A stretch of DNA of 28,264 nucleotides from a virus. Both the position numbers and the translations under genes were made by a program. This document shows positions 755-25,928 of this stretch, in pieces. Each line of letters opens with the position of its first letter. Position 1 is the stretch's first letter. Location: the IMG/VR virus record IMGVR_UViG_3300044627_001907, positions 1 through 28,264 of that record; one strand, written 5' to 3'. The notes under the pieces are model-generated. The model worked only from the letters and a program-made list of their open reading frames with translations, searched no databases and had not been told where the DNA came from.

Positions 755-931
755 ATGTTGAAGATTATCACAGACGATTACGTTGTCTACGAGATTTGGG
801 AGTGTGATGATAATGGTATGCCTGACGCATTCATTGACCACTTCGATTCGCTCATGGATGCGGAGTACGAGTTGCTCGTACTAAATTGTGGTACAATGCT
901 AGGTGATCCAGCCGGAGACTATACTCTCTAA
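755..931 (+). CDS. Hypothetical acidic protein (58 aa)
   Basis: I chose ATG 755 (MLKIITDDYVV) over the in-frame TTG at 737, because 737 lies inside the preceding 26-residue gene and ATG 755 has an AAAGG site upstream. The protein is acidic with no identifiable domain. Its last codons (ending TAA at 929-931) overlap the 5' arm of the hairpin element at about 921-974, so translation of this gene could disturb or help fold the hairpin. Confidence 0.55.
   Translation: MLKIITDDYVVYEIWECDDNGMPDAFIDHFDSLMDAEYELLVLNCGTMLGDPAGDYTL
889..897 (+). promoter_or_regulatory. Possible extended -10 promoter
   Basis: TGGTACAAT matches the extended -10 pattern TGnTATAAT at 8 of 9 positions. The -35 region is weak (GAGTTG 17 nt upstream). 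If real, a transcript would begin near 904 and carry the whole hairpin (921-974) as leader for the genes at 990 and 1253. It lies inside the coding end of the upstream gene, so chance is possible. Confidence 0.25.
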
Positions 932-974
932 TATTCTTTCTGAACGAAGTGAAGAAAGAATATATAGAGAGATA
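921..974 (+). promoter_or_regulatory. Structured leader hairpin, copy 1
   Basis: Inner stem ATATTCTTTCT (931-941) pairs perfectly over 11 bp with AGAAAGAATAT (953-963), enclosing the loop GAACGAAGTGA (942-952). An outer 7-bp stem CTCTCTA (924-930) pairs with TAGAGAG (965-971), and a single bulged A (964) separates the two. The hairpin ends 15-19 nt before ATG 990, next to the ribosome site (GATAAGGGAG). The second copy at 2176-2230 has the same loop, bulge and outer stem but a different, fully compensated inner stem. There is no T-tract after the hairpin, so it is not a classical terminator. Confidence 0.75.
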
Positions 975-989
975 AGGGAGAAAGAAATA

Positions 990-1250
990 ATGTTTGTTAA
1001 GCCGATGATTACTGTCCTGAGTGAAGGTTCTAGTGCTGAGGATGATTATGTTTGCCTTGAGATTGGTTGCACTTGTTGTGATAAAGAGTACCTACTTGGT
1101 ACTAGCCTCACGGGTTACATGAGTTGGCGAGCAGGAGCGCTTGTGCAGGATGCCTTCCCCGAGGTACCTAAAGAGTATCGTGAAATGTTTATTTCTGGTA
1201 CTTGCCCTAAATGCTGGGATGATATGTTCAACAACGAGGATGAGGTATAA
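990..1250 (+). CDS. Small Cys-rich, possibly zinc-binding protein (86 aa)
   Basis: Start ATG 990 was chosen for its GGGAG ribosome site; the longer frame from 903 would translate the hairpin and is unlikely. The protein carries two cysteine clusters: C-x-C-C-D near residue 30 and C-P-K-C-W-D near residue 77, suitable for binding one zinc ion. The middle resembles small actinophage proteins with the pattern W-x-x-GALVQDAFP-x(n)-REM. No catalytic function is known to me. It is 2 bp upstream of the ArdC-like gene and probably co-expressed with it. Confidence 0.6.
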   Translation: MFVKPMITVLSEGSSAEDDYVCLEIGCTCCDKEYLLGTSLTGYMSWRAGALVQDAFPEVPKEYREMFISGTCPKCWDDMFNNEDEV

Positions 1251-1252
1251 CA

Positions 1253-2161
1253 ATGACTAAGAAAAAGTTTGACATTGCAGAGGTTCACACTCAGATTACT
1301 GAGGGTTTGATTGCTATGATGGAGCAGGGTGTTGCACCGTGGAGTAGGCCGTGGATTGTACGTGGTATCAACGATGCTATGGCACCGAAGAATGGTATCA
1401 GCAATCGTAGGTACACTGGCTTCAATAGCCTTTACCTATCGTTCCTCATGGAAGAGAACAAGTGGGATGACCCACGATTCTACACGATGAGCAGCCTGCC
1501 CGAGGATGCTAAGGTAATCAAGGGTAGTAAGTCTACGATTGTTATTTATAACAAGAAGATTGAGCGTGAGGTTGAGGATGATAACGGTGAGGCTGAGGTG
1601 CAGACTTCATGGTTTCAGCGTTACTATCGTGTGTTCAATGGTGCTCAGATTGAGGGTCTGCCTGCATTTGAGAAGCCTGAGCCTAACACTGAGGGTTATA
1701 CTCACGAGGATGAGGGTTATCCTGAGGCTGACTTGATTGCTACTGAGTGGTGTGATAATCTTGCAGACTTTAGTCATGGTGGTGACCGTGCCTACTACGT
1801 TCCTAGCATGGATAGCATCACGATGCCTGACCTTGACCAGTTCCCCACACTAGCGGGTTACTACCAGACACTGTTCCACGAGATTGCTCATAGCACAGGA
1901 CACAAGTCTCGTGCTAATCGTATTGAGACTACAACTTTTGGTACTGATAGGTACGCTAAGGAGGAGTTGGTTGCAGAGTTTGCTGCCGCATTCCTTTGTG
2001 CTAACACTGAGGTGCCGTTGAATGAGGAGCAGTCGGCTGCTTACTTGAAGGGATGGGCGAAGCGTTGCAAGGATGAGCCTAAGTTGCTATACTCTGCTGC
2101 TAATGCTGCTCAGTTTGCTGCTAGTATGGTGATGGAAAATACTTACGCTATGGTTGCATAA
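1253..2161 (+). CDS. ardC: ArdC-like antirestriction/zincin metalloprotein
   Basis: 302 residues, ATG start 2 bp after the previous stop. The N-terminal part (about 1-140, with TEGLIAMMEQGVAPWSRPW) matches the ArdC N-terminal ssDNA-binding domain found in plasmid and phage antirestriction proteins. The C-terminal part holds a zincin metallopeptidase motif HEIAHSTGH (residues 209-217: H209 and H213 as zinc ligands, E210 catalytic), followed by an E-E-L-V-A-E helix (about 237-242) that can supply the third ligand. Length matches ArdC-type proteins. By family knowledge it may protect incoming DNA from restriction. The gene, with its small Cys-rich partner, lies between the two hairpin copies. 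Confidence 0.8.
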   Translation: MTKKKFDIAEVHTQITEGLIAMMEQGVAPWSRPWIVRGINDAMAPKNGISNRRYTGFNSLYLSFLMEENKWDDPRFYTMSSLPEDAKVIKGSKSTIVIYNKKIEREVEDDNGEAEVQTSWFQRYYRVFNGAQIEGLPAFEKPEPNTEGYTHEDEGYPEADLIATEWCDNLADFSHGGDRAYYVPSMDSITMPDLDQFPTLAGYYQTLFHEIAHSTGHKSRANRIETTTFGTDRYAKEELVAEFAAAFLCANTEVPLNEEQSAAYLKGWAKRCKDEPKLLYSAANAAQFAASMVMENTYAMVA

Positions 2162-2175
2162 AAGAATGGAGACTA

Positions 2176-2230
2176 TATACTCTCTAAGATAATCTCTGAA
2201 CGAAGTGAAGAGATTATCTATAGAGAGATA
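2176..2230 (+). promoter_or_regulatory. Structured leader hairpin, copy 2
   Basis: Inner stem AGATAATCTCT (2187-2197) pairs perfectly with AGAGATTATCT (2209-2219) around the loop GAACGAAGTGA (2198-2208), identical to copy 1. Bulged A2220 and the 7-bp outer stem CTCTCTA/TAGAGAG (2180-2186, 2221-2227) are also the same. It is followed by GATAAGGAAG, the ribosome site of the gene at 2241. A possible promoter TTGCAT-N16-TATACT (2154-2159, 2176-2181) overlaps the 5' side; copy 1 has the same TATACT but no matching -35. Confidence 0.75.
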
Positions 2231-2240
2231 AGGAAGAAGA

Positions 2241-2471
2241 ATGATTGAAAGAATTAGTATGACTACTAGGAATTATGTGAATATGATTAGTGATGATGAG
2301 GATGTTCCGTTTGAGACTGCGAATCCGGATAGTTTGTTGGTGACTTGGATGGTGTATGATCCTGAGTATGATAGGATCCCCGAGGAACCACCGTGGGAGT
2401 CGCATGATTGGACTAATGATTATGATTATCCCGATGATTATGCACCTGAGCATGATGAGGAGTTTGAGTGA
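2241..2471 (+). CDS. Hypothetical highly acidic protein (76 aa)
   Basis: ATG 2241 follows hairpin copy 2 and a GGAAGAAGA ribosome site. The product is strikingly acidic, with a D/E/Y/P/W-rich C-terminal half that is probably disordered. Very acidic small phage proteins sometimes mimic DNA or sequester host DNA-binding proteins, but nothing here shows that directly. The stop TGA overlaps the GTG start of the next gene. Confidence 0.6.
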   Translation: MIERISMTTRNYVNMISDDEDVPFETANPDSLLVTWMVYDPEYDRIPEEPPWESHDWTNDYDYPDDYAPEHDEEFE

Positions 2472-7372: not shown

Positions 7373-7803
7373 TGCTAGTACACTATAAACACCTCAGTAA
7401 GTACGCTCATAGTCCTATCAAGGCTCACGCTGCTGACGCTTGTTATGATCTTCGTGCCAGTAGTAAGGCTACCGTACCCGCTGGTGGTACCATTGTCATT
7501 CGTACTGATCTGGCTATTCGTGTACCGACAGGACACGTTGGTCTTATCATGAGCCGCAGCGGTCTAGCCTCTAAGCATAGTGTGTTCGTACTAAATGCGC
7601 CGGGTATTATTGACGCTGAGTATAGTGGTGAAATTAAGATTGTCCTTGGTAATATGAGTCCTAATAATTATCTTGTGGAGAAGGGAGATAAGGTGGCACA
7701 GTTTACTATGTTTCCTCTTATGCAGTTGAATCTTCTTCGCGGTGATAATATGGTATGGACTGGAATGAGGGGCGAACGTGGCTTTGGATCTTCTGGCTAT
7801 TGA
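7372..7803 (+). CDS. dut: dUTP pyrophosphatase (trimeric dUTPase)
   Basis: 143 residues with all five trimeric dUTPase motifs: A-A-D-A-C-Y-D-L-R-A (20-29; Cys where Gly is usual), S-R-S-G-L-A-S (substrate phosphate binding), N-A-P-G-I-I-D-A-E-Y-S-G-E-I (uracil binding and catalytic Asp), K-G-D-K-V-A-Q-F and the C-terminal R-G-x-R-G-F-G-S-S-G-Y arm that closes over the site. It hydrolyses dUTP to dUMP and pyrophosphate, keeping uracil out of phage DNA. The last 26 bp overlap the start of the DNA polymerase gene. Confidence 0.95.
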   Translation: MLVHYKHLSKYAHSPIKAHAADACYDLRASSKATVPAGGTIVIRTDLAIRVPTGHVGLIMSRSGLASKHSVFVLNAPGIIDAEYSGEIKIVLGNMSPNNYLVEKGDKVAQFTMFPLMQLNLLRGDNMVWTGMRGERGFGSSGY

Positions 7804-8728
7804 TACTGAAACAACTGGTGTGGGTTGGCATGATGAAGCCTTCATGATTAGTGTTGCGTGGCATAATGATGGTTTGCGTACGCTTGTTATTGATGAGCGT
7901 GATCTTTCTGAGGATATGTGGTATCGTGAAGTTGATGGTATTATTGAGATGCTGCAAGAAACAGATAAGATTATCATGCATAATGCTAAGTTTGATATCC
8001 AGAAATTGTGTCGGCTAGGTGTCCCACTCAGCGTATTTAAAGACAAGTTTGAAGATACACAAGCACTAGCCCATCTTATCAACGAACAACAATCTACCAG
8101 CCTCAAGTACCTTGCTCGTACCGTACTAGGTGAAGAGACTGATGAGGATGAAGTACTAAAGGTATGGCGTAGAAAAAATAAGATTAAGAAAGATGAAGGT
8201 TATGAGCCTATCCCCAATGAGATTCTTGCACCGTATGCAGCAAAGGATGCTGAGTTCACGCTGCGGCTTTACGAAGTATTATGGAATCGAATGCCCAAGG
8301 ACTTGCACCCGTTGTATCAAATTGAGAAAAACCTAACCCTTAGCCTGCTAGGTATTGAGGCTAGAGGATTACAGATCGACCGAGCGTATGTTAAACTACA
8401 AAGAAAAGAGTATGGTGATCGGATTTACAAACTTAAGCAGCGTATTGGGGAACTTGCTGGCGAAGAATTCAACCCACAGTCCCCTAAGCAACTCATCGAA
8501 GTCTTTGCACAGCGTGGAGTACGAATCGCAGCAACGGACAAGGCAACGCTTGCCAGCGTGGATGACGAACTTGCGGCGCTAATCGTAGAATTACGAGAGG
8601 CTAACAAGATTAAGTCTACTTATCTTGACGCTCTTGCTGAGGAGGCTAAAGATGGTATACTTCATCCTAGTTTCCGTCAGCACGGCACTAGGACTGGTCG
8701 CATGTCGTCAGGAGCAGCAGAAGTATGA
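7778..8728 (+). CDS. DNA polymerase family A, N-terminal half (3'-5' exonuclease and thumb)
   Basis: GTG 7778 with GAGGGG upstream, inside the dUTPase end. 316 residues: ExoI D9-T-E11, ExoII N-A-K-F-D73, ExoIII Y153-A-A-K-D157, all catalytic residues present, so proofreading should be active. The thumb region follows. The frame ends inside the conserved T-G-R-x-S-S-x(5)-Q-N-I-P motif: it reads RTGRMSSGAAEV and then TGA. The rest of the polymerase is encoded at 9489-10232, beyond an inserted glycosyltransferase gene whose ATG overlaps this TGA (ATGA). The N-half alone cannot polymerise; it must assemble with the C-half. Confidence 0.9.
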   Translation: MALDLLAIDTETTGVGWHDEAFMISVAWHNDGLRTLVIDERDLSEDMWYREVDGIIEMLQETDKIIMHNAKFDIQKLCRLGVPLSVFKDKFEDTQALAHLINEQQSTSLKYLARTVLGEETDEDEVLKVWRRKNKIKKDEGYEPIPNEILAPYAAKDAEFTLRLYEVLWNRMPKDLHPLYQIEKNLTLSLLGIEARGLQIDRAYVKLQRKEYGDRIYKLKQRIGELAGEEFNPQSPKQLIEVFAQRGVRIAATDKATLASVDDELAALIVELREANKIKSTYLDALAEEAKDGILHPSFRQHGTRTGRMSSGAAEV

Positions 8729-9492
8729 TTAGTGTAATTACCCCTACTTACGAGACAAGCCCCGAGGTCCTTGCTCGTACATGGTCTAGCCTAAAGAATC
8801 AAACTCATACTGATTGGGAGTGGGTTGTATGGGACGATTCTACTAGCGAGAATGTTTATCGTCAGATGTATGGTTATTGTAATGATGAGCGATATAAGAT
8901 TCAATTGCATCGTTCTAATAAAAACATTGGTAACATTGGCGCAGTTAAATTGTGTGCGTTTATGCAAGGCAATGGTGATCTTCTTGTAGAGTTAGATCAT
9001 GATGATGAGTTGGTTCCTAACGCTCTTGAAGAATTGTGGCTCGCTTATATGGATAATAATGCAGAATTCTTTTATTCTAATTGTTGCGAAATTAATGAGC
9101 AGAATCAGTCGTGTCGTTATCCCGAAGGCTGGGCGTTTGGTTACGGCTCTGATTATTGGGATGATGAGTATAATGTGTGGGTCATGCGCTCACCAGAAAT
9201 CAACGCTACTACTATGAGTCATATTGTTAGTATGCCTAATCATGTTCGTGCTTGGGATCGTAGTGCTTATCGTGATATTGGTGGTCATAATCCGTCTTAT
9301 AAAGTCGCAGATGATTATGAGTTAATGGTTCGCACCATGCTCGCCTATAAGTATCATCATATTGACCAATTATTGTATAAACAGTATATTAGTTCTAGCA
9401 CGGCTCAACGAGTGCATAATGCTGAGATTCAACAGCGCGTAGCAGAAATCTCTGCTAAGTATTATCCTAAAATTCAGGAGAAATTTGCATGA
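8725..9492 (+). CDS. Family 2 glycosyltransferase inserted in the polymerase gene
   Basis: 255 residues of GT-A fold: N-terminal I-S-V-I-T-P-T-Y-E-T-S, DxD-type metal/nucleotide-sugar motif D91-H-D93-D-E, and acidic D-D-Y-E-L-M-V-R (196-203) at the usual catalytic-base position. ATG overlaps the polymerase-N stop and its TGA overlaps the polymerase-C start (ATGA at both ends). GGAG sits 10 nt before the start. Sequence style is G/T-rich compared with the flanking polymerase, by eye. Possible roles are glycosylation of phage DNA, virion or host surface; no base-hydroxymethylating enzyme is visible in the window. No intein or intron features surround it. Confidence 0.9.
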   Translation: MISVITPTYETSPEVLARTWSSLKNQTHTDWEWVVWDDSTSENVYRQMYGYCNDERYKIQLHRSNKNIGNIGAVKLCAFMQGNGDLLVELDHDDELVPNALEELWLAYMDNNAEFFYSNCCEINEQNQSCRYPEGWAFGYGSDYWDDEYNVWVMRSPEINATTMSHIVSMPNHVRAWDRSAYRDIGGHNPSYKVADDYELMVRTMLAYKYHHIDQLLYKQYISSSTAQRVHNAEIQQRVAEISAKYYPKIQEKFA

Positions 9493-10232
9493 ATGTGCAG
9501 AATATTCCAAGGAGTCAGAAAGATGTTAAACGAGCATTTGTCCCCAAATTCGATGCATTCTTATTCTTCGACTACAAAGCAATCGAAGTCAGGCTGCTCG
9601 CATACTACTTGGCAAGGGGAATCAGCGATTATTCATTGGCGACCGAAATCAACAATGGATCGGATCCGCATCTTGTCACAGCGCAAGGATTGTATAACCA
9701 AGAAAAAGTAGATGATGAGCAGAGGCAAGTAGGTAAGACCCTAAACTTTAGTATCATCTATGGTGGTGGAGCACCGACTATCATGCGTCAACTTAGCGTC
9801 GATTTTAAGGAGGCTAAGAGGCTCCTAGCGGCGTATCACACTACTCGTCCGGGGATTAAGATCCTTAACGAGCAGATCGCTCAGACAATCCAACAGAAGG
9901 GTTACATCACGAACCTGTATGGTCGTCGCTTGCATGTAGAATCAGAGCACAAAGCCCTCAATGCTCTCATTCAAGGCAGCGCAGCAGACCTAATGAGAGA
10001 ATCCGTAGTACGAGTCAGCAATCTACTAGATGCGAAATATGCTACACATATAGTAAATATCGTGCATGATGAGATTATCCTAGACGCTGTAACAAGCGAG
10101 ATTAGTAGACTCGTTAACACAATCCCTAACCTTATGGGGAATAAAACCGTAGAGAAATTCGTTAGTATAGAAACAGACTGCGAAATTTCTACTACAAACT
10201 GGGCAGAGAAGGAGGCGTATAGTGGCAATTGA
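9489..10232 (+). CDS. DNA polymerase family A, C-terminal half (palm and fingers)
   Basis: ATG 9489 with CAGGAG 8 nt upstream. 247 residues beginning MNVQNIPR, the second part of the motif cut at 8728. Motif A D28-Y-K-A-I-E33-V-R, motif B R79-x3-K83-x3-F87-x3-Y91-G, motif C H193-D194-E195: all polymerase catalytic residues are here. Phe at the K+4 position is the E. coli F762 equivalent. Together with the N-half it makes about 560 residues, close to a Klenow-sized phage polymerase. It should be produced by termination-reinitiation after the glycosyltransferase. Confidence 0.9.
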   Translation: MNVQNIPRSQKDVKRAFVPKFDAFLFFDYKAIEVRLLAYYLARGISDYSLATEINNGSDPHLVTAQGLYNQEKVDDEQRQVGKTLNFSIIYGGGAPTIMRQLSVDFKEAKRLLAAYHTTRPGIKILNEQIAQTIQQKGYITNLYGRRLHVESEHKALNALIQGSAADLMRESVVRVSNLLDAKYATHIVNIVHDEIILDAVTSEISRLVNTIPNLMGNKTVEKFVSIETDCEISTTNWAEKEAYSGN

Positions 10233-13992: not shown

Positions 13993-14756
13993 GAGTAGAT
14001 ATGAATGATGCTAGTAGGTTTGAGTTTGGGCTTGATAAGCCGCTAGAGTTGAAAGGTGATTGGGCTGTTACCGCTGATTGGCATGTACCTTTGTATGATG
14101 CTAAACTTGTTAATATGTTCCTTGACGAGGCAGAGTCGTATTCTAACCTGCTAATCGCAGGAGACTTCCTTAACGGTGACTCGCTTAGTCAGTATTATCC
14201 TAAGCAGAAGAGTGCTGGAATTAAGAAGGAACTTGAAGAGGCTCGTAACCTCATGGAGATCCTATGCAATAATTTTAAGAACATTGTGTTCCTAAAAGGC
14301 AATCATGATTATAGGTTTACTAAGACGACAGAGTACCGCGAGTCATTTGTAGAATCTATGGATAATGTGTTTGCTGGTATTAATCGTAATGGTACTAGGA
14401 TCAAGTTTAGTAACCTAGATAATTGTTACTTGACGAGTAATAAGCAGCGTTACTTTATTGCTCATCCTACAACGTACTCGCGTAATCCTCTTAATAATCC
14501 GCTAGCGATTAGTGAGACTAAGAAGTGTCATACGCTTACTGCTCATACGCATCATTGTGCTATGGGCTGGTCGCCTTGTGGGGAGTACATCGTAGGAGAA
14601 CTAGGTGGTTTCTTTAACATTCCTCAGACAGAGTACTTGCAAGGCACAACTACCTTCCCTAACTGGTGCAATGGTTACTGGTTTATTACTGGTGGTAAGC
14701 CGCATATGGTATCTTATGGTTCTCGTTTGTTGAGAGCCACTAGTTTTGGTAAATAA
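13989..14756 (+). CDS. Calcineurin-like metallophosphoesterase
   Basis: 255 residues, ATG overlapping the previous TGA (ATGA). Metal-binding motifs in canonical order: D30-W-H32, G-D-F-L-N-G-D (about 58-64), G104-N-H-D107, a lone His in A-H-P, and H186-T-H188. It hydrolyses phosphomono- or diesters using two metals. No capping or Rad50-partner domain is present, so an Mre11-type complex is not obvious; a nucleotide or DNA-end phosphatase is as likely. It ends 4 bp before a tRNA gene. Confidence 0.85.
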   Translation: MRVDMNDASRFEFGLDKPLELKGDWAVTADWHVPLYDAKLVNMFLDEAESYSNLLIAGDFLNGDSLSQYYPKQKSAGIKKELEEARNLMEILCNNFKNIVFLKGNHDYRFTKTTEYRESFVESMDNVFAGINRNGTRIKFSNLDNCYLTSNKQRYFIAHPTTYSRNPLNNPLAISETKKCHTLTAHTHHCAMGWSPCGEYIVGELGGFFNIPQTEYLQGTTTFPNWCNGYWFITGGKPHMVSYGSRLLRATSFGK

Positions 14757-14760
14757 TAAT

Positions 14761-14842
14761 GGGGCTGTGGCGGAATTGGTAGACGCGCCGGACTTAAAAT
14801 CCGTTACCCTTGGGTGTGAGAGTTCGATTCTCTCCAGCCCTA
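14761..14842 (+). tRNA. tRNA-Leu (TAA)
   Basis: Acceptor GGGGCTG/CAGCCCT, anticodon arm CCGGA-CTTAAAA-TCCGT with anticodon TAA (codon UUA), long variable arm, TPsiC AGTTCGATTCT. It stands apart from the 12-gene array, between phosphoesterase and ribonucleotide reductase. The frame of the downstream gene runs through it by chance. Confidence 0.93.
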
Positions 14843-14880
14843 CTAGTAATAATATAGAAGAATTTATAGAAAGGTTAAAT

Positions 14881-16800
14881 ATGATGGGTTTGCCAACTGA
14901 TTATCAGACGTTCATTGCTACGAGTCGTTATGCTCGCTGGCTTGACTCTGAGAATCGTAGAGAGTACTGGCCCGAAACGGTCAGTCGTTATGTAGAGTTT
15001 ATGGATCAGCACTTGCGAGTTAATAATAATTATAAGATGCCAGCAGAGTTGAAGGCAGAGTTGCTTGACGCTATCCTTAGCCTAGAAGTTATGCCTAGTA
15101 TGCGAGCACTAATGACTGCTGGTCCCGCATTGACTCGTGAGAATGTGGCTGGGTATAATTGTTCTTACACTCCAATCAATCATCCCCGATGCTTTGACGA
15201 GATCTTGTATATCCTCATGAATGGTGTGGGTGTAGGCTTCTCGGTAGAGCGTGATGATATTAATCAGTTGCCCGTAGTGAATGAGCACTTCGAAGATAGT
15301 ACCACTATCATTACTGTTGCTGATTCTAAGGCTGGTTGGGCGCGATCACTACGAGAGTTGATCGCTATGCTCTATGCTGGTCAAAAGCCTAGCGTTGATT
15401 ACTCTCAAGTACGACCGTCTGGTGCTCGTCTTAAGACGTTTGGTGGGCGAGCATCTGGCCCTGCACCACTAGAGGACTTGTTTAAGTTTACTACTAGATT
15501 ATTTGAGAGTGCTGCTGGACGTAAGTTAACTAGTTTGGAGTGTCATGATCTTGTATGTAAGATTGCTGAAGTGGTCGTGGTTGGTGGAGTTAGGCGCTCA
15601 GCCCTCATTAGTCTATCCAATCTATCCGATGGACGTATGCGTAACGCGAAGTCTGGGCAATGGTGGGAAGACAATCAGCAACGGGCGCTTGCAAATAATA
15701 GTGTTGCGTACTCTGAGAAGCCGGGTATGGATGCGTTCATGGAAGAATGGTTAAGTCTCTACCAGTCTAAGTCTGGTGAGCGTGGTATCTTTAATCGTGA
15801 GGCTGCAATCAAGCAGGCTGCTAAGAATGGGAGGCGTGACACTGAGTATGCGTTTGGCACTAATCCATGCTCTGAGATTATTCTACGTCCGCACCAGTTT
15901 TGTAATCTTACTGAGGTTGTGGTTCGTGCATCAGATAATCTTGATGACCTTAAGCGTAAGGTTCGGTTGGCTACAATTCTTGGCACGTTTCAGGCTACCC
16001 TCACAGATTTTAAGTATCTGCGTAAAGTGTGGCGGCAGAACACAGAAGAAGAGCGTCTGCTCGGCGTGTCGCTCACAGGTATCTTCGACTCCAAGTGGAT
16101 GACAGGTAATGGTACCATGCAGATTGCACCCAACCTCAAGGAGATGCGAGAAGTTGCTATTAAAACCAATAAGGACTTCGCTAAGGCACTTAAGATTCCA
16201 CAGTCAACAGCGATTACTTGCGTTAAGCCTAGTGGTACTGTCTCACAATTGGTTGATTCCGCTAGTGGTATTCATCCTCGTTACGCTCCTTATTACATTA
16301 GGCGTGTCCGTGGAGACATCAAGGATCCTCTCACACGCTTCTTAGAAGCCTCTGGAGTGCCATGTGAGGCGGATGTAACTAATCCAGAGATTATGGTATT
16401 TTCTTTCCCACAGAAGGCTCCTACGACTCGTAAGAAGGCTCTAACAGCCATTGATCACTTAGAGTTGTGGAAAGCGTATCAGGATGCTTGGTGCGAGCAC
16501 AAGCCTAGTATCACAGTTAGTGTCGAAGAGGATGAGTGGATGGAAGTAGGCGCTTGGGTATACGAGAACTTTGATAGTGTCTCTGGTATCTCATTCCTAC
16601 CCAAGTCTGATCATTCTTATCGTCAAGCCCCTTATGAGGAGATCACTAAGGATGAGTACGAGGCTCTGACTGCTGCTAGTCCTACTAGTATTAATTGGGC
16701 TGGACTCAGCGAGTACGAGTTAGAAGACAATACTGATTCTAGTCAGACACTAGCGTGTACTGCGGACGGATGCGAGGTAGTAAACATTGGCAACTCTTAG
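14881..16800 (+). CDS. nrdJ: Adenosylcobalamin-dependent ribonucleotide reductase (class II, monomeric RTPR type)
   Basis: Start ATG 14881 (MMGLPTDYQ) was chosen: AAAGG lies just upstream, while the longer frame from 14746 would translate tRNA-Leu. 639 residues. N328-P-C330-S-E332 is the thiyl-radical Cys and Glu, Cys94 and Cys341 the substrate-reducing pair; the +11 spacing from 330 to 341 equals that of C408/C419 in Lactobacillus RTPR. The C-terminal C-x4-C pair (CTADGCE) is the shuttle. It reduces ribonucleoside triphosphates using vitamin B12 and needs no second subunit, matching the absence of nrdB or nrdD. Host thioredoxin must re-reduce it. Confidence 0.93.
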   Translation: MMGLPTDYQTFIATSRYARWLDSENRREYWPETVSRYVEFMDQHLRVNNNYKMPAELKAELLDAILSLEVMPSMRALMTAGPALTRENVAGYNCSYTPINHPRCFDEILYILMNGVGVGFSVERDDINQLPVVNEHFEDSTTIITVADSKAGWARSLRELIAMLYAGQKPSVDYSQVRPSGARLKTFGGRASGPAPLEDLFKFTTRLFESAAGRKLTSLECHDLVCKIAEVVVVGGVRRSALISLSNLSDGRMRNAKSGQWWEDNQQRALANNSVAYSEKPGMDAFMEEWLSLYQSKSGERGIFNREAAIKQAAKNGRRDTEYAFGTNPCSEIILRPHQFCNLTEVVVRASDNLDDLKRKVRLATILGTFQATLTDFKYLRKVWRQNTEEERLLGVSLTGIFDSKWMTGNGTMQIAPNLKEMREVAIKTNKDFAKALKIPQSTAITCVKPSGTVSQLVDSASGIHPRYAPYYIRRVRGDIKDPLTRFLEASGVPCEADVTNPEIMVFSFPQKAPTTRKKALTAIDHLELWKAYQDAWCEHKPSITVSVEEDEWMEVGAWVYENFDSVSGISFLPKSDHSYRQAPYEEITKDEYEALTAASPTSINWAGLSEYELEDNTDSSQTLACTADGCEVVNIGNS

Positions 16801-16873: not shown

Positions 16874-17146
16874 ATGCTAGTAAAGATTGGGCAGTGTGAA
16901 CAGCCCGGAAAGGGCTGGAAGGGTATCGCTTGGAAACAGAATTATAATTATAGTTTCGCTGGAGGAATGGGTATGACAACCCGTAACTGGGATGACTTTA
17001 AACGTAAAGGCCAGCCTGATAGTATGCACCATGCTAGTATCAAAGAACAATTATGGGCTGCTCATAGACTAGCAATGTGGGTCAAACGAGAATATGGTAA
17101 TCCTTGGCTAGCATGGGATTGTTACACTAATGGACACATGAAATAA
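16874..17146 (+). CDS. Rpf/lysozyme-like transglycosylase domain protein
   Basis: 90 residues: I-G-Q-C-E9 with the putative catalytic Glu, an aromatic stretch F-A-G-G-M-G-M-T-T-R-N-W (like the Y-G-G-L-Q-F-S-x-x-T-W of Rpf domains), E-Q-L-W-A-A-H-R-L-A helix, and a closing P-W-L-A-W-D-C. Two cysteines lie at the places bridged in Rpf. The Rpf fold cleaves peptidoglycan and is characteristic of Actinobacteria. ATG 16874 has its AGG directly adjacent (poor spacing), and an in-frame TGA lies just upstream. Last gene of the plus-strand unit, 4 bp before the terminator. It could aid lysis or entry. Confidence 0.7.
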   Translation: MLVKIGQCEQPGKGWKGIAWKQNYNYSFAGGMGMTTRNWDDFKRKGQPDSMHHASIKEQLWAAHRLAMWVKREYGNPWLAWDCYTNGHMK

Positions 17147-17150
17147 AAAA

Positions 17151-17177
17151 AAGACCCCCGGCTTAGCCGGGGGTCTT
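17151..17177. terminator. Bidirectional intrinsic terminator between convergent units
   Basis: Perfect 12-bp stem AAGACCCCCGGC (17151-17162) / GCCGGGGGTCTT (17166-17177) with loop TTA. On the minus strand it runs directly into a long T-tract (complement of A-rich 17141-17152), giving a strong terminator for the late unit. On the plus strand only AGTTTAATT follows, weaker but sufficient to back-stop the early unit. Confidence 0.93.
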
Positions 17178-17184
17178 AGTTTAA

Positions 17185-19422
17185 TTAAAACAATACCTCT
17201 TGAGAACTAGGAATTTTAGAACTAGATCTAGAAGTTCCAGAAACTTCTTTAATCCTTGAAAATACGTTTTCAATTTCTTTATTAGACATCCCAGTTTCTT
17301 TTAATTGCGCTCTTAACATAGAAAAAGCCGAATCAATTTTTTGCTGATAAAAGCCCGGAGTATCTCCTTTTTTACCAATATCAAAATTAGGATCATCGGG
17401 AAACGCCCTTTGCTGCTCTTTAAGCCAGTCGTGAGGCCACAACCCTTTTTTATTATACCTATTTTGATCCCATACAAGAGGTTGAAAATTATCTTTGCTA
17501 TTAATAAAATTAAACAATACTTTAGCCGCATCAGGTTTAGTATCTAATAACTCTATCCCCACAATACTACTAGCCGATTGTGGAATAATATGGTCGGGGT
17601 CTGGTTTAAATGATTTATAGATTTTTTTATTAGGATCCTTTTTACTAGCGCTAATAATATTAATCGTTAAATCCTCTGACTGACCTGTAGGTCCAGCCAA
17701 AAGATCCGTAATAGACCCCCTAAGAGCAGACCGCTGCTGACTAATAATGTCATCAACTTCGTCTGAAGTATACAACCCTGCTTTAACTAAAGCATCTTTA
17801 AATTCTACAAAACGTTTTCTACCAACTTGACTTGAAACATTTTCTGTTTGCCTAATATTAGAAATTCTAAAAGTAATAGGTTTTGTTAAATCAACATCAT
17901 CAAGTAACGTAGCAGCGTCCCCAACGGTACCTCCGGCTAATTGCTTTAACATGTCTTCTGTAACACCCGAAACATTATCAAACGTATGCTCTGCAAAAAA
18001 CTGGCTTTTTGCATTTTCATATTCTGCTTTTAAATCTTTTAACTGTAATTTTTTCTCAGGCGTAACATCCGTTTTTCCTAAACTTTTAATTTCTTCTTCT
18101 AACATTTTAATTTCTTTGTCTTGAGACTTTAAATCATCCCATTTCGCCGAAGCGTGAGAAAACACTTTTGCTAATTCTTCTTGAGGATTTTCAGAAAGAC
18201 TTTTTGGAGTAACGCCATGAGAAACAGGAATAGACATATCTGCTGGCGGTTGATCTAAGTCTTCCATAATAGTTTTTACCCAATCATCTGCCTCTCCGCC
18301 TTTTTTAGTATTACGCGCAGCATCAGCCGCTCTTTGTGCCTTGCCGATATTATACATACCGCCCATACCACCGGCGCTTAGCACAGTGCCAGCAAGCGCA
18401 CCACTAGCGTCCCTAACATTACCCGCAGCCCTAGCAGTCTTCTCAGAAGTAGCAACAGCCTTACCAGCCTTCAAAAGTTTACTCGTCACAGGAAACGCTC
18501 CAGTAACACCACCAGTAGCAAGACTAAGACCAGTCAAAGCAGGATCAATATAACTAGTAAGAGTAGGATCAGCCAACCAATCGCCCCTAACAGTTTCCTT
18601 AGCAGCATCCGAAACGGGAGCATTAGCAAGAGTAAACTGCATAATACTCTTATTCAAATCCTTACCCATTTCCGTATTAGCCAACGCAGCCCCACCCGGA
18701 ACAGCATTAGCAGCAATAGGCAAAGCAGTCTTAACATAATCCTGAGCAAGACTCATACCAACAATCTCAGCCATAAGTTTAGGATCCTCTTCAAAAGCAG
18801 CCTTAATATCCTTAAACTGTTGGTTAAACGTATTAGCATTATACGGAGTATCAACACGACCAAGATCAGCATCACCAGCAATACGATACCTATTCGGAGC
18901 ATTAGGATCCGACACAGCACGACCAGCATTAGTAGTAGACAAAAAGCCTTCCATACCAACACCCTGCTTAAAATAAGGATTCTCACTAACAACGCCACCC
19001 TCAGTAGGAGTAATCATATCAGTCAAAGACCTAGCAGACTCGGACCCCGGCGACTCGCGCTTAGAAGTAAAAAGCGTATCCAAATTATACTTATTACCAA
19101 TAAAAGAAGCCCTCTTAGCAGTCTCATCCCGCTTCTGCTGATACGGAACCAGTACATCCTCATACGCAGCCCTAGCCTCATCATACGGCATCTTATACTT
19201 ATCCATGATAAGATTAGTTACCATAGTACGCTGATTATCCTTAGCGCGAAGTTCAGGACTAGTCTGTCGAATAGTACTATTCATACCCTCTTTAATATTA
19301 AACGGCAAAGGATACTTTTCTTTATCCTTCTTAATTTTTTCTGCTCGTTTTCTAGCAAGAGTATTCCGATTAGACTGCTTAACCATTGTCTTACTAAGAT
19401 TACCCTCGTAAATAGAAGGCAT
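17185..19422 (-). CDS. Virion-associated protein with C-terminal HNH nuclease domain
   Basis: 745 residues; ATG with AAGGAGGT, whose TAA is the previous gene's stop. Residues 1-about 365: basic N-terminus, then Ala/Gly-rich hydrophobic helices (about 215-350), like internal virion or ejection proteins. Residues 365-745: a helical coiled-coil linker (405-455) and an HNH-type core with D-P-D-H611-I-I-P-Q, then N-F-x-P-L-V-W-D-Q-N and N-K-K-G, the ordered His and Asn residues of a beta-beta-alpha-metal nuclease. The C-terminal half is A-rich on the sense strand, unlike the G/T-rich N-terminal half. Last gene of the late unit. A DNase delivered with or carried in the virion is inference. Confidence 0.7.
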   Translation of the reverse strand: MPSIYEGNLSKTMVKQSNRNTLARKRAEKIKKDKEKYPLPFNIKEGMNSTIRQTSPELRAKDNQRTMVTNLIMDKYKMPYDEARAAYEDVLVPYQQKRDETAKRASFIGNKYNLDTLFTSKRESPGSESARSLTDMITPTEGGVVSENPYFKQGVGMEGFLSTTNAGRAVSDPNAPNRYRIAGDADLGRVDTPYNANTFNQQFKDIKAAFEEDPKLMAEIVGMSLAQDYVKTALPIAANAVPGGAALANTEMGKDLNKSIMQFTLANAPVSDAAKETVRGDWLADPTLTSYIDPALTGLSLATGGVTGAFPVTSKLLKAGKAVATSEKTARAAGNVRDASGALAGTVLSAGGMGGMYNIGKAQRAADAARNTKKGGEADDWVKTIMEDLDQPPADMSIPVSHGVTPKSLSENPQEELAKVFSHASAKWDDLKSQDKEIKMLEEEIKSLGKTDVTPEKKLQLKDLKAEYENAKSQFFAEHTFDNVSGVTEDMLKQLAGGTVGDAATLLDDVDLTKPITFRISNIRQTENVSSQVGRKRFVEFKDALVKAGLYTSDEVDDIISQQRSALRGSITDLLAGPTGQSEDLTINIISASKKDPNKKIYKSFKPDPDHIIPQSASSIVGIELLDTKPDAAKVLFNFINSKDNFQPLVWDQNRYNKKGLWPHDWLKEQQRAFPDDPNFDIGKKGDTPGFYQQKIDSAFSMLRAQLKETGMSNKEIENVFSRIKEVSGTSRSSSKIPSSQEVLF

Positions 19423-20363: not shown

Positions 20364-23300
20364 CTAACCCTCCATCATAGATAATTGTTTAGCAATACCA
20401 GTCTTAGGCCGCTCATCCCGAATCTTATTAATAACAAACTGGATTTGTGCCTCACTCATACCCTGAGCGCGAGCAGCAGGAACCCAAACAGTCTCTACAT
20501 ACTCTTTACGACGCTTCCACTCCTGAGCCGCCTCCAAACCCTTCATAGACTGCTCAGTACGCTTAGAATCATTAATATACTTAAGTACAATAGCACCAAC
20601 AGCATCCTGCCTAACACTAGGCGGAAGAGTACTAGGATTAAGCCTATACGATTTAATACCCAAAGCACTAAACAAACGCTGAGTAGGATCAGCAGCCTCA
20701 GCCGCTTTCATATTAGGAATACTAAGCCGCCAAGGATCCTTAGGATTAGTAGGATCATAATTCTTAATAATATCAGGAGCATTCTCAATAGTTGCATATT
20801 TATTCTGAAGCGCATCAGCCTCATACTCACTATACTTAGCCAACTCTGCAATCTTATAAGGATAAGTAGCCTTCATAACACTACTACCCAAATCCTTACC
20901 CATACCAAAAACTCCACCAGCCTGAGTACCATCCTTCTGTAATCGCGACCAATCAATATTACCATTACGCGGATCAACACCAAGCGTATCCTTAATAAGC
21001 GCATTAAAATAAGGGTTACCAAACTCAAGAACATTAGCATGAGTCTCGCCACCAAATAAAGCACTAAAAGCAGCCATAGCCATATCACCACTAGTACCAA
21101 AAGGACTAAGAGCATTACCGTCAATACGGAAATCCGAATCAGTAATGCCAAACATATCCTTAATAACTTGTGGAACAGGAATAGTCTGCATCATCCAATC
21201 CTCCACACCTTGCTCTAGATTCTGCTGATACCCTTGCTGACCAATATGGTACAAAGCATTACTAGTAATAGGACGATCAACAAGCATACGATACGAGAAC
21301 GTAGCAGAGTGACGCTGCCAAGCATAGAATGGCATAACAACATTACGCATAAGTTGCTCAGCCGCACTAAAATTATGATAATTACCAGACACCGTATTCG
21401 TCATATAACGCATACGATGCTTAAGATTAGCATTAAAATAATCCGAACTACGATCTAACAAGAGGTCACTAGCAGCCTCAAACGGAGTCATAGCATCATC
21501 TCCCGACCGCGCATTACCATTCCAGTCAGTACCATTATCAATATATGCTTGAACCTCTGGGCCACGCATAAACGATTGGAAACCAGCATCATTACGCAGG
21601 AACTGCATAGCAACATTACGACGCATCATCGCTTCCCAAGCGCTCACAGTAGTATAACCACCATGCCAAATATACTTCTTAGCCCACTTCGCTTTAGTCG
21701 TAGCCGGATTACTAAAATCAGAAAGACTCTGCGGATTAGCCGCAATACTCTGAATACCAGCATCCTGCCTATAAACATTACTTTCAGTTTCATAATTTAT
21801 TTGACGAGCAACAGCCTCAGACTCGGCCTTAAAATTAGTAAGTTGAGCCGTAAACCAATCATTATTAATGCCACGCCGCATAGATTCCCTAGCAATCTTC
21901 TCAATCACAGTACTAAGAATAAGAGGAGCAACACTAGGATTAAACATCATCATCATTGCCAAACCACCAATAATATTATTAGAAATAAAACCGGGATTAG
22001 CATTTAGCACAAAGAATTTAAACAAGTTACCCCAACCCTTAACACCCTTAGAGTTAAGAAGTTGTGCTGCCCTTGTATCAGCCTCAATAGTCATCTCAGC
22101 AAGATCCCTATACGCTTGATTAGGAATAGCAAGCACAAAACCATTATCAGGAATTTGATTAGGATCAGAGAACTCTCTAGCAATCCACGCCTTAGTTGTA
22201 GAATGCGTAGTCAAATCTTCTTGAAGAGCCTCATTAAGCCAATCATGCAAACCACCACGAACAATAAACTGTGGCTCACCATTAACCATTCTAACTCCCA
22301 TACCAGAATTAACATCAAGAGTAGAATTAATAGGTTCGAGAGTACCATCTAAGTAACTAGCAAACGCATCCTCTGCTTCGGCACCAACGCCACGCATCCT
22401 AGCAAAATCAAGCGCCTCATCAGCAGTCTCAAAAACACCAACATTATGCATCGTATGATAACCAGAATCAGCAGCAGTCCTACCAGTAACTTGACTAGCC
22501 GGAATAAGCACAGCAGCAGTCTCAGCAAGAGTACGAAGATCCCGTTCAATACGATTCTTCATAAAATTAACTCGCGACTGAATAATGCGACTAAGAGCAT
22601 GTTGACGCATACCAGATAGAGCAACACGATTCTCATTACCAATAATCTGCTCATTCTGCCTAACACCAGTACGACCCGTATCATTAACTTTCTGCGAATA
22701 AAAACGAGCCTCAGGATACACACTAGCCATACCATTAAGAGCACCCTCATACAAGAGTTTACGACCAACATCAATATCTTCTAGAATAGGCGCACCAGCA
22801 CCCTTATTCTTAGCATTAAAGAAAACCTTAGGCAGAACAAAAACCTCATTATTATCTACCAACTTGCCTTCATAAACGGTACCACCACCAACCTCGTGCC
22901 TAAGAGTAGGAATATGAAAAGCCACAAAGTCCTTGCCAACATTATCTTTCGCCTTAATAAGGACAGGACGACCCGGTACACCATAAGAACCCAGACCATC
23001 AGTAAAGACACCTATTCGCTCTAACGCTTCAACAGCAGCAACCATCTGATCCTCACGCTGCTTACGAATAATCGGATCCTTAATATCATCAAACACTGTA
23101 CCAGCCTCATCAGCCTTCTGAGCAATATTAATAAGAGCCTCACGGTTACCACGCGCAGCCAAACCAGTAAGCAATAGATTAGTATTAACCTGTAGAATAC
23201 GATTAGCAAAACGACCAAGACGACCCTTAGTACCACTCTTACCAAACAAACGATAAGGATTAAGACCAAGACCTTCCATAGCCTCCTTATACAATAATTC

Positions 23301-25928
23301 TAATTGCTTAAGAGTACGAGGCGTAGTATCATCATGCGCGATACGCGAACGAGTCGCTTGATCCTGACGATCAAGACGATTATACAAATCAACAGCCTTA
23401 TCTAAATCAAGATTACCAGCCTCATAAGTAGAATCCGCAAGTCGCATATCAAGATCCGTAAGATTCTTATCAAACAAATCATCAAAAGAAGCCGCTGCCT
23501 CTTCAATATCATTAATCGTCTCGTCTAATAATTCTGTTAACTTTAACTCTAAGTTAGCAAGAGTCTTACGAGCACTAGGAATAATCTCTCCCGTATCCTT
23601 ATCACGAGGAAGTTTATCAATCTTATCACGAACCTGTTGGCGCTGAATAGCGGGATTTTGCAAAGGACTAGGACCCGAGCCACCCATAAGCCGCGCCTCA
23701 ATAGCCGCTCGCATAGGAGCACTCAACTCAGTCTCATTATTAATACGCAACAACCTAGCCGCTCGTTGCAACTCAGTAGCAACATCACCCCACTCATACA
23801 CAGCAGCATTCTTAACAGCCTTAGTATAATTATAACGATACGACAATAAAGGCATATCCACTAGTTTACCCGCGAGTTTACCCGTAAGAGTAGGACTAGC
23901 AGACGCATTAATAGTAGCCTTATCAACACCACGACCCACCCAGAAGAACGCCTCTTTTAAGCCCCTTACAATAGGGCTAGCAGGCAATCGATACACAGCA
24001 TTAGGGTTAGCCTCTAATACGCTCTCAGGCTTCTCTAAGACCTTCGTACGAGGCTCAAACAGCGCCGTAGCGCGTACACCCCACCCAGTCTCCAAACCAT
24101 TAAACTCTAAACCAAGCGCCTGCCAACGAGACAACTCTGCCGCAGCAAGATCATCACCATTATAAGCAGCACGAACAGTTTTACGCCAAGTACGAGCATT
24201 CGGAGCCGCATCAAACTTAGAAGCATTAACAGCAGCCTCCGCAGCATTAATAGTAGACTCATCAACAGTACCAAAGATTCGTTGCAAACCCTCAACATTA
24301 TTAAGCCTATCATTAGCAACCTCAGGAGTAAGAATCTCCCTACTAGCATTACGCGCAGCATTAAACGCAGCACGATCAGAAGCCTCAACGCCCATCCGAC
24401 CAGCACCACCAAAAATACGCGCAGACCTACCAGTAGTACCAAACGCAACACCAGCCTTAGCCGTAAAACCCATAATAGGGGCCAGATCAAGAACATCCAA
24501 CGCATACGCAGCCGGATCCTTATTAATCTCCTCACCAAAACGATCATAAGAAGTAGGATCACTCAAACCATCAAGCCACGAACGATCCTTACCACTACCA
24601 TCCTTAGCAAAAGGATCATAATAACGAGTAGAAAAATCCTTCCAAATAGCATCACCCATCTGAAAATCTACATCATCACCCCAACTATAATTATCATTAG
24701 TAGCCCACTTAAACGTTTCTTTACCCGCAATATAAGACTCGTCACCAGCCATAGCAAGACCAGCAGGCAAACCAAGACCCATACGCGCAAAACCACGAAG
24801 AGCATTACCAGTAAAACCAATAAGCCCCTTTTGACTAAGAGGCACATTCTGACCAGACCAGTACGTTTTACGAGCACGAAGAACATCAGAATCAGCCTGA
24901 CCATTCATATACTCAATAGCATCACCAGCCAGTTTATTACCACCAGCACTAGCACCAAAATTATAAGCGCTAGCCACACTACCAACATTACCACTAAAAG
25001 CCGCAGCAGTAGCCGCAACTAGACCAGTACCCACACTAGTAAACCGAGACTGCTCCTCACCACCAACAGCCCTAGCAACAGAACCATCCATGCTAATAGC
25101 GTCAGAAAAAGCATCCTCCATCTCTTTTACTTTCTCAGGATTATACTCACCACGCGAAGACTTAACAAGATAATCCTTATACGCCATATACTGCAAACCA
25201 ACAGCCTTAAGTGCATCATTATTAGTCTTCTCACCATCTTTAAACAATGCTTGCCCATACTTAAACAAGCCTTGAGCATTATTATTCTGATAAGTTACAT
25301 CAACATCATCTTTACGGATCTTCTTATTATCAGTATTAAAAAGAATACCATACTTAGATCCTACTTCAGGCTTATGACCATAACGATCCACATACTTAGA
25401 GCCATTAGTTCCATACTTATCACCAAACGTAGTATACAAATCCGCAAGACGATTAAACTTTTTATCGCCCGGAACAAGTTGAGTAGCCGCACTAACATCC
25501 TTAAGAACACTAGGACTAGTATTACTCATAATACTAAAAGCAAGCATATCCTTATTTTTACGCAAACGATCAAGCGCATAAGCACGTTGCCACTCTTCTC
25601 CCATAAGGCCAAGTGTTTGTTTCTTCTCAGTACGACCATAAATACCAGTATATCCGCGCTGAGACAAATTCATAGCCTCAGTAAACGAGTACTTAGGCTC
25701 ATTAGTATTAGGATTATACGAAGAATAGAATTGGTTACGCGCACTAATAAGTTTATCTTGCTTAGCATAATACTTAGTACGCATTTTTTCGAAAGGACGA
25801 TCAGCCTTTACAGCCTTTTGAAAAGCATTACTAGAAAAGTAATTTGGTTTCTTCTCAGTACTGCCTGCTTGCCACCAACGCAAACCCGTTCCACCAACTC
25901 CACCAGAAGTATTTCGCCCCTCAGCCAT
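20364..25928 (-). CDS. Giant virion protein, likely internal/ejection protein (1854 aa)
   Basis: ATG 25928 with TTGGAGAATAGTT upstream; TAG stop at 20366-20364. By far the largest gene. N-terminal 300 residues polar and repeat-poor, then several Ala/Gly-rich hydrophobic stretches (about 305-345, 375-395), a long coiled-coil region (around 750-880) and a segment near 1370 reading F-K-F-F-V-L-N-A-N-P-G-F-I-S-N-N-I-I-G-G-L-A with a following helix, which resembles the conserved R-N-x-x-G element of large phage internal proteins. No peptidase, transglycosylase or RNA polymerase motif was seen. Likely part of the DNA-ejection apparatus; this is inference from size and place. Confidence 0.6.
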   Translation of the reverse strand: MAEGRNTSGGVGGTGLRWWQAGSTEKKPNYFSSNAFQKAVKADRPFEKMRTKYYAKQDKLISARNQFYSSYNPNTNEPKYSFTEAMNLSQRGYTGIYGRTEKKQTLGLMGEEWQRAYALDRLRKNKDMLAFSIMSNTSPSVLKDVSAATQLVPGDKKFNRLADLYTTFGDKYGTNGSKYVDRYGHKPEVGSKYGILFNTDNKKIRKDDVDVTYQNNNAQGLFKYGQALFKDGEKTNNDALKAVGLQYMAYKDYLVKSSRGEYNPEKVKEMEDAFSDAISMDGSVARAVGGEEQSRFTSVGTGLVAATAAAFSGNVGSVASAYNFGASAGGNKLAGDAIEYMNGQADSDVLRARKTYWSGQNVPLSQKGLIGFTGNALRGFARMGLGLPAGLAMAGDESYIAGKETFKWATNDNYSWGDDVDFQMGDAIWKDFSTRYYDPFAKDGSGKDRSWLDGLSDPTSYDRFGEEINKDPAAYALDVLDLAPIMGFTAKAGVAFGTTGRSARIFGGAGRMGVEASDRAAFNAARNASREILTPEVANDRLNNVEGLQRIFGTVDESTINAAEAAVNASKFDAAPNARTWRKTVRAAYNGDDLAAAELSRWQALGLEFNGLETGWGVRATALFEPRTKVLEKPESVLEANPNAVYRLPASPIVRGLKEAFFWVGRGVDKATINASASPTLTGKLAGKLVDMPLLSYRYNYTKAVKNAAVYEWGDVATELQRAARLLRINNETELSAPMRAAIEARLMGGSGPSPLQNPAIQRQQVRDKIDKLPRDKDTGEIIPSARKTLANLELKLTELLDETINDIEEAAASFDDLFDKNLTDLDMRLADSTYEAGNLDLDKAVDLYNRLDRQDQATRSRIAHDDTTPRTLKQLELLYKEAMEGLGLNPYRLFGKSGTKGRLGRFANRILQVNTNLLLTGLAARGNREALINIAQKADEAGTVFDDIKDPIIRKQREDQMVAAVEALERIGVFTDGLGSYGVPGRPVLIKAKDNVGKDFVAFHIPTLRHEVGGGTVYEGKLVDNNEVFVLPKVFFNAKNKGAGAPILEDIDVGRKLLYEGALNGMASVYPEARFYSQKVNDTGRTGVRQNEQIIGNENRVALSGMRQHALSRIIQSRVNFMKNRIERDLRTLAETAAVLIPASQVTGRTAADSGYHTMHNVGVFETADEALDFARMRGVGAEAEDAFASYLDGTLEPINSTLDVNSGMGVRMVNGEPQFIVRGGLHDWLNEALQEDLTTHSTTKAWIAREFSDPNQIPDNGFVLAIPNQAYRDLAEMTIEADTRAAQLLNSKGVKGWGNLFKFFVLNANPGFISNNIIGGLAMMMMFNPSVAPLILSTVIEKIARESMRRGINNDWFTAQLTNFKAESEAVARQINYETESNVYRQDAGIQSIAANPQSLSDFSNPATTKAKWAKKYIWHGGYTTVSAWEAMMRRNVAMQFLRNDAGFQSFMRGPEVQAYIDNGTDWNGNARSGDDAMTPFEAASDLLLDRSSDYFNANLKHRMRYMTNTVSGNYHNFSAAEQLMRNVVMPFYAWQRHSATFSYRMLVDRPITSNALYHIGQQGYQQNLEQGVEDWMMQTIPVPQVIKDMFGITDSDFRIDGNALSPFGTSGDMAMAAFSALFGGETHANVLEFGNPYFNALIKDTLGVDPRNGNIDWSRLQKDGTQAGGVFGMGKDLGSSVMKATYPYKIAELAKYSEYEADALQNKYATIENAPDIIKNYDPTNPKDPWRLSIPNMKAAEAADPTQRLFSALGIKSYRLNPSTLPPSVRQDAVGAIVLKYINDSKRTEQSMKGLEAAQEWKRRKEYVETVWVPAARAQGMSEAQIQFVINKIRDERPKTGIAKQLSMMEG

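Follow-up and report, generated by a model that had tools for sequence, protein, structure and literature searches.

What do two hairpins do that carry the same 11-nt loop on different stems, lie on either side of a phage anti-restriction gene, and each stand directly in front of a ribosome site and a start codon? The window, i.e., the whole stretch of DNA that was analysed, is a 28,264-base IMG/VR phage fragment of an incomplete genome. Its rightward early genes, which extend to ~17.1 kb, comprise ardC, 12 tRNAs, a DNA polymerase, a primase/helicase, and a ribonucleotide reductase (RNR), and the virion genes beyond ~17.1 kb are directed leftward. A DNA-level search of the phage collection with the window returned no near relative. 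The closest relatives of its RNR are those of Streptomyces phages, with 62–64% identity; among the matches listed, ardC is at most ~36% identical to cultured relatives, and terminase is <27% identical. The evidence assembled below points to the hairpin as a small, exchangeable element of gene-expression control.

Structure and Gene Setting of the Two Hairpins

The features of the region, all on the plus strand, are as follows.

920–975, plus strand: hairpin B (copy 1); covariance-model match at 917–981, 80.6 bits
924–930 and 965–971, plus strand: outer arms of copy 1, CTCTCTA and TAGAGAG
931–941 and 953–963, plus strand: inner arms of copy 1, ATATTCTTTCT and AGAAAGAATAT
942–952, plus strand: loop of copy 1, GAACGAAGTGA, with a putative G·A/A·G tandem, A-U, C-G, and GAA triloop
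964, plus strand: bulged A of copy 1, followed by the 3′ flank ATAAGG at 972–977
973–980, plus strand: SD region AAGGGAG 3′ of hairpin B, with the start ATG at 991
991–1250, plus strand: small gene lying behind hairpin B and ahead of ardC; 86 aa when read from ATG 991, with a weak match to phrog_20898
1253–2161, plus strand: ardC, anti-restriction (ArdcN and MPTase-PolyVal), between hairpins B and C
2176–2231, plus strand: hairpin C (copy 2); covariance-model match at 2173–2237, 82.6 bits
2180–2186 and 2221–2227, plus strand: outer arms of copy 2
2187–2197 and 2209–2219, plus strand: inner arms of copy 2
2198–2208, plus strand: loop of copy 2, GAACGAAGTGA
2220, plus strand: bulged A of copy 2, followed by the 3′ flank ATAAGG at 2228–2233
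2229–2236, plus strand: SD region AAGGAAG 3′ of hairpin C, with the start ATG at 2241
2241–2471, plus strand: gene C, small acidic protein of 76 aa, behind hairpin C

The preliminary description of this DNA had reported two hairpins with an identical 11-nt loop, a bulged A, and a 7-bp outer stem, in which the inner stems differ at four positions that are all compensated; a re-reading of both copies bears this out. The loop GAACGAAGTGA is present twice in the window, each time capping a perfect 11-bp stem. The extents given earlier, 921–974 and 2176–2230, place the hairpins correctly and end slightly too soon, since the TAT/ATA flanks of both copies form three extra basal pairs past a second bulged A, which lengthens the elements to ~920–975 and 2176–2231. 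When folded as RNA, the copies reach z-scores of −4.0 and −5.3 relative to shuffles, with 0/200 shuffles equally stable. Their position directly before an SD and a start, with no T-tract, is likewise as first reported. An intrinsic terminator is rejected for the hairpins, as no T-tract lies behind any copy and the SD directly follows the stem.

A Family of Start-Linked Hairpins

A covariance-model search for further copies had been proposed at the outset, with their lack in related genomes to count against the element; a first pattern scan of viral contigs returned 26 stretches, and those of them that form the hairpin, together with finds from later scans and from the covariance model R1, brought the family to 29 distinct start-linked hairpins in related uncultured phage contigs, including the window pair. 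These copies come from related phages and are not fully independent, and L006:2932, counted among the 29, is not closely followed by a start codon. A chance repeat is ruled out by the 27 further distinct copies found elsewhere. The covariance model so obtained can be used to find additional family members.

Where the region is complete, it usually holds three hairpins, A, B, and C. Hairpin A precedes the first early gene, which encodes a basic zinc-ribbon protein (CxxC..CxxC), in 11/11 genomes compared; no close cultured relative of this protein was found. Hairpin B is located before ardC or before a small gene inserted ahead of ardC, and hairpin C is located before the gene that follows ardC. 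Of these, B and C lie in the window; A falls just outside it and is seen in the related contig L029, the ardC of which is identical to that of the window. All copies are in the sense orientation, with the loop on the coding strand. The distance from the loop end to the start codon is about 28–37 nt in nearly all copies, the SD comes directly after the stem, and the 3′ flank reads ATAAGG or ATAAAGG. The total helix measures 18–21 bp in class 1 and ~25 bp in class 3, with single-nucleotide bulges, the position and side of which vary between hairpin classes.

Searches outside this family were negative within their scope. At the gathering score, Rfam 15 matched only tRNAs in the window and its relatives and no hairpin family, and the best match of a permissive Rfam search was chance-level and antisense. 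Bacterial chromosomes and prophages yielded 49 pattern matches, none with a stem longer than 5 bp; none of the eight matches to the loop variant GAGCGWAGCGA was such a hairpin in this phage context, and a pattern with an AGAAAGG outer arm found nothing. A literature search for the loop sequence returned only matches that are, by title, seemingly unrelated.

The 5′ foot of the class 1 copies includes TATACT, which could be taken for a sigma-70 −10 box, and TATACTCTCTA is conserved among them. However, such a promoter is highly improbable: none scored above threshold on the coding strand at 880–930 or 2140–2185, there is no −35 element, and TATACT is missing from class 3 and becomes TATACC in L073, along with a compensating change in the stem. 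Moreover, the bases of TATACT pair with ATA.

Stem Covariation and the Absence of G-U Pairs

Among 19 aligned copies, 12/12 inner-helix pairs are changed on both sides, with 83 cells over the whole structure. The covariation score is 0.585, compared with 0.206 for shuffled and 0.158–0.233 for slid controls, and 0/500 shuffles score as high. Strong selection acts on the folded shape of the hairpins; the selection on structure proposed from the window pair is thus strongly supported by covariation, although, with G-U pairs absent, selection acting solely on RNA is one reading among others. The inner helix of the 19 copies displays no one-sided G-U change, and the 22 unique inner arms contain 0/232 G-U among standard inner pairs, compared with 60/757 in 35 tRNAs from the same contigs (Fisher 1e-7), an imperfect control given the higher G+C of the tRNAs and the relatedness of the copies. 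The finder permitted G-U, and the absence is therefore not built in. The loop-closing pair is always pyrimidine–purine (16 T-A and 6 C-G). Within one genome, the inner arms differ at 1–9 of 11 positions and are never identical (eight genomes compared), a divergence that would limit cross-pairing and repeat deletion.

The lack of any G-U pair is unexpected if the sense RNA alone matters, which leaves a place for a DNA-level or mutational explanation. In this alternative, the palindrome would form a cruciform or, in single-stranded DNA, a hairpin, and would serve as a recombination boundary, in priming, or as a hairpin promoter of the phage N4 type, in which a virion RNA polymerase encoded by the phage uses DNA hairpins; or template-switch copying would keep the arms perfect. 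As DNA, either strand folds, in agreement with such a role, for which we nevertheless consider the overall probability low. The single orientation and fixed SD distance in every copy point instead to the transcript, the tRNAs that serve as the control differ in composition, and no phage RNA polymerase was recognised among the large unknown ORFs of the window, the genome being incomplete.

The Conserved Loop

The loop follows the consensus GAACGWAGTGA and is nearly constant across the copies, the only variation being A or T at the middle base or a single-base insertion (GAACGTTAGTGA, GTAACGAAGTGA). It is best read as GA-AC-GWA-GT-GA, in which tandem G·A pairs, an A-U pair, and a C-G pair would support a GWA triloop; both the one-base-inserted and the A/T variants support this predicted fold. 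The invariance is partly a matter of ascertainment, since the scans used the loop sequence; however, nearly all A copies in records that were caught through B or C, which are unbiased in this regard, retain the loop. Position A of G021 (L180:3548–3617) retains its flanks and outer stem but has an unrelated apical hairpin where the inner stem and loop would be. Among DNA mini-hairpins, C(GNA)G flanked by Py-GA-Pu is known to be very stable, and the resemblance of the phage loop to this type is a further point in favour of action at the DNA level.

The same loop occurs on ~5-bp stems as a dispersed repeat in bacterial genomes, with 29 vs. 1 and 26 vs. 0 control matches in two of them. Loop positions 3 and 9 of this chromosomal repeat covary (A-T 38, G-C 32, A-C 11, and G-T 5, as tallied by hand; Fisher 4e-9), indicating that the loop fold is general. 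In G035 and G037, the genomes behind L121 and L125, the repeat TGTCATTCTGARCGWAGYGAAGAATCT carries the phage loop, often as inverted pairs 30–90 nt apart. This repeat is similar to the phage hairpin in its 11-nt loop fold and the A/T variation of its triloop, whereas its stem of ~5 bp, its 3–9 pair of A-T or G-C, and the lack of a tie to start codons in the copies read set it apart.

Two other phages, both apparently unrelated, also bear the loop. G004 contains two loop hairpins, one of which lies directly before an SD; loop hairpins were not seen in its readable relatives, most of the records of which do not cover the region. In L210 (G057:28000–47900), three genes have the loop, on stems of 4–6 bp, ahead of their SD; these leaders run from a terminator through the GAACGAAGTGA hairpin and a second hairpin to the SD and the ATG, with copies at 35924, 38148, and 45956. 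A promoter-like TCCACTCCTATAATGAAACG is repeated in G057.

A conserved loop may also be a protein target. As a translational operator, comparable to those of T4 gp43 or of coat proteins, the GAACGWAGUGA loop would be read by a phage or host RNA-binding protein that represses or activates the three cistrons, and the zinc-ribbon protein, the gene of which stands behind hairpin A in every genome compared, is a candidate ligand. The loop is present in the start-linked hairpins and absent from the hairpins of an upstream array in the same genomes, which also speaks for an operator. Nevertheless, we judge this quite improbable, considering that the 49-kb contig of G004, which has two loop hairpins, yielded no homologue of the zinc-ribbon protein, that the loop is common among bacterial chromosomal repeats, and that it is substituted at A in G021.

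Exchange between Modules

Several homology breaks between the related phages coincide with the hairpins. L029 and L030 have common sequence to just past hairpin B (3538), followed by different small genes, with ardC common again from 3802. Between L029 and L184, a 69-nt hairpin alone is conserved (94%), and its flanks are unrelated. Additionally, hairpin B of L029 is 95% identical to hairpin C of L182 and 77% identical to its positional counterpart. The small gene at 991–1250 of the window is missing or substituted in relatives, and the hairpin is kept in front of the non-homologous small genes that follow B; in G010, G016, and G053, the gene behind C is without clear homology to gene C of the window, and the hairpin is still there. 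These comparisons give signs that hairpin copies have been exchanged between positions and modules, as would also be consistent with a DNA-level role.

Proposed Function in the Early Operon

The constant sense orientation and SD distance make the transcript the more probable acting form, and, given module exchange, the simplest fitting function is a self-contained leader with an open SD and a boundary for the mRNA 5′ end. We tentatively regard the hairpins as start-associated leader elements of the early operon, which would keep the SD exposed and protect or define mRNA 5′ ends, and hold this reading at somewhat less than even probability. The hairpin and SD would travel as one unit at the head of a gene module. 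Within the early mRNA, which is polycistronic, self-pairing of the long perfect stem would prevent the sequence of a swapped neighbour from sequestering the SD; the stem would also furnish the cistron behind it with a structured 5′ boundary, at which nucleolytic attack may be slowed or defined. The loop would cap the stem through the tandem G·A pairs and the C(GWA)G triloop, probably with an added role in recognition. Several points count against the leader reading: the inner pairs include no G-U, a generic insulator need not retain one 11-nt loop, the loop has been replaced at A in G021, and the copies stem from related phages. The roles listed in the preliminary description (mRNA stabiliser, RNase III-type site, protein-binding leader, and riboregulator) all stay candidates.

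The early RNase III (R) sites of T7 are bulged ~20-bp hairpins located between early cistrons, just before starts. The anatomy of the phage hairpins is close to that of such processing sites, at which the host enzyme would cleave close to the bulged A of the stem, splitting the early polycistronic mRNA into units, an alternative that we regard as possible, albeit unlikely. Their bulged helices of 18–21 or ~25 bp match the size of classical substrates, they are placed between the early cistrons, immediately ahead of start codons, and the pairing of their stems is strictly Watson–Crick. RNase III cleavage of mRNA exists in actinobacteria (PMC2936110), which also counts for processing. However, the enzyme does not need a fixed 11-nt loop, and the position and side of the bulge depend on the hairpin class; the invariant structured loop and the strictly covarying stem distinguish the hairpins from the T7 R sites.

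The Upstream Hairpin Array

In the relatives, an array of ~8–10 tandem hairpins, counted at stems of at least 8 bp (mononucleotide shuffles give 2.6–5.5), occupies the divergent stretch upstream of copy A, from which the terminase side points leftward and the early genes rightward. The array sites are as follows.

L029, 1290–1700: array
L182, 6545–6980, minus strand: array
L184, 4765–5180, minus strand: array
L179, 2310–2735: array
L077, 9100–9515: array
L181, 1890–2335: array

The triloops are mostly C-NNN-G, and the stems covary, with 40/61 predicted pairs changed on both sides when hairpin A is counted in. The array hairpins have no Rfam match, and such an array at the divergence of late and early genes is described by no RNA library. 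G004 has eight stems of 10–26 bp, perfect up to 26 bp, in the same kind of place. The GC skew of L029 rises from ~−0.3 to ~+0.3 near 1500, in the array region; this possibly marks a replication origin or merely the switch of the coding strand.

The location of perfect hairpins at a GC-skew flip, together with the missing G-U pairs, keeps a DNA-level role alive. A broader form, in which the start-linked hairpins and the array constitute one phage element that works through palindromic DNA (origin, priming, and recombination hairpins; module joints), would account both for stems free of G-U and for copies that move between positions; we consider it rather unlikely.

Relation to Known Phage Elements

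Start-associated repeats are common in phage genomes. The Start-Associated Sequences and Extended SAS (SAS/ESAS; PMC3203893) and the analogous repeats of cluster EF Microbacterium phages (PMC7302621) have in common with the hairpins that they lie directly upstream of the starts of non-structural genes, in one orientation, with the SD inside or adjacent and an inverted repeat just 5′ of it, and that they serve non-homologous genes. The placement that characterises SAS, namely adjacency to the start, overlap with the SD, and a single orientation, is found in the hairpins; the 13-bp GGGATAGGAGCCC-type repeat of SAS at the SD is absent, and the ATAAGG/ATAAAGG flank stands there instead. ESAS are 17-bp inverted repeats with conserved arms, a variable spacer, and no covariation, whereas the hairpins display covarying arms and a conserved loop, and there are three copies here vs. 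11–19 in SAS/ESAS. Among the ESAS of cluster K mycobacteriophages, base-pairing finds no support in the departures, and DNA-binding sites are the reading preferred by the authors of that study (PMC3203893). Clear covariation, an invariant structured loop, three sites in a constant layout that surrounds an anti-restriction gene, and signs of exchange distinguish the family from ESAS, the best known of these repeats.

Like the hairpins, the gene 43 operator of T4 (PMC3014915) is positioned 5′ of the SD and has a conserved loop, but it serves one gene, and its stem is short and its ligand known. The extrahelical bases are the one feature that suggested a comparison with integron attC sites, which have RYYYAAC/GTTRRRY core boxes and a cassette integrase. 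A second group of elements bears on the module boundaries. The promoter early stem-loops (PeSLs) of T4-like phages (Arbiol 2010 and Comeau 2014, as cited in PMC4503421) are cassettes of an early promoter and a terminator hairpin at the boundaries of shuffled modules. The hairpins share with them the form of intergenic stem-loops that flank shuffled modules and, in contrast to them, have no sigma-70-like promoter at 880–930 or 2140–2185 and no terminator T-tract. The hairpins therefore resemble both SAS/ESAS and PeSLs yet lack defining features of each. Short reporter constructs can address whether the hairpin is a translation insulator, a processing site, an operator, or a DNA hairpin.

Other Features of the Window

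Several short palindromes lie within ~100 nt at 345–450, before a 73-aa ORF, and the region folds only mildly better than its shuffles (z −2.0). The ORFs at 7778–8725 and 9489–10232 match consecutive parts of the phrog_17 DNA polymerase (671–978 and 981–1238) and are separated by an unrelated, weakly GtrB-like ORF at 8725–9492. The tRNA-Leu(taa) at 14761–14843 lies within the called 5′ end of the RNR ORF (14746–16800), and the true RNR start must thus be downstream of the tRNA. The 1854-aa ORF at 20364–25928 on the minus strand has no match in Pfam, PHROG, or PDB, and its product is probably an internal virion protein. A strong, terminator-like bidirectional palindrome is located at 17142–17186, where the early and late genes converge.
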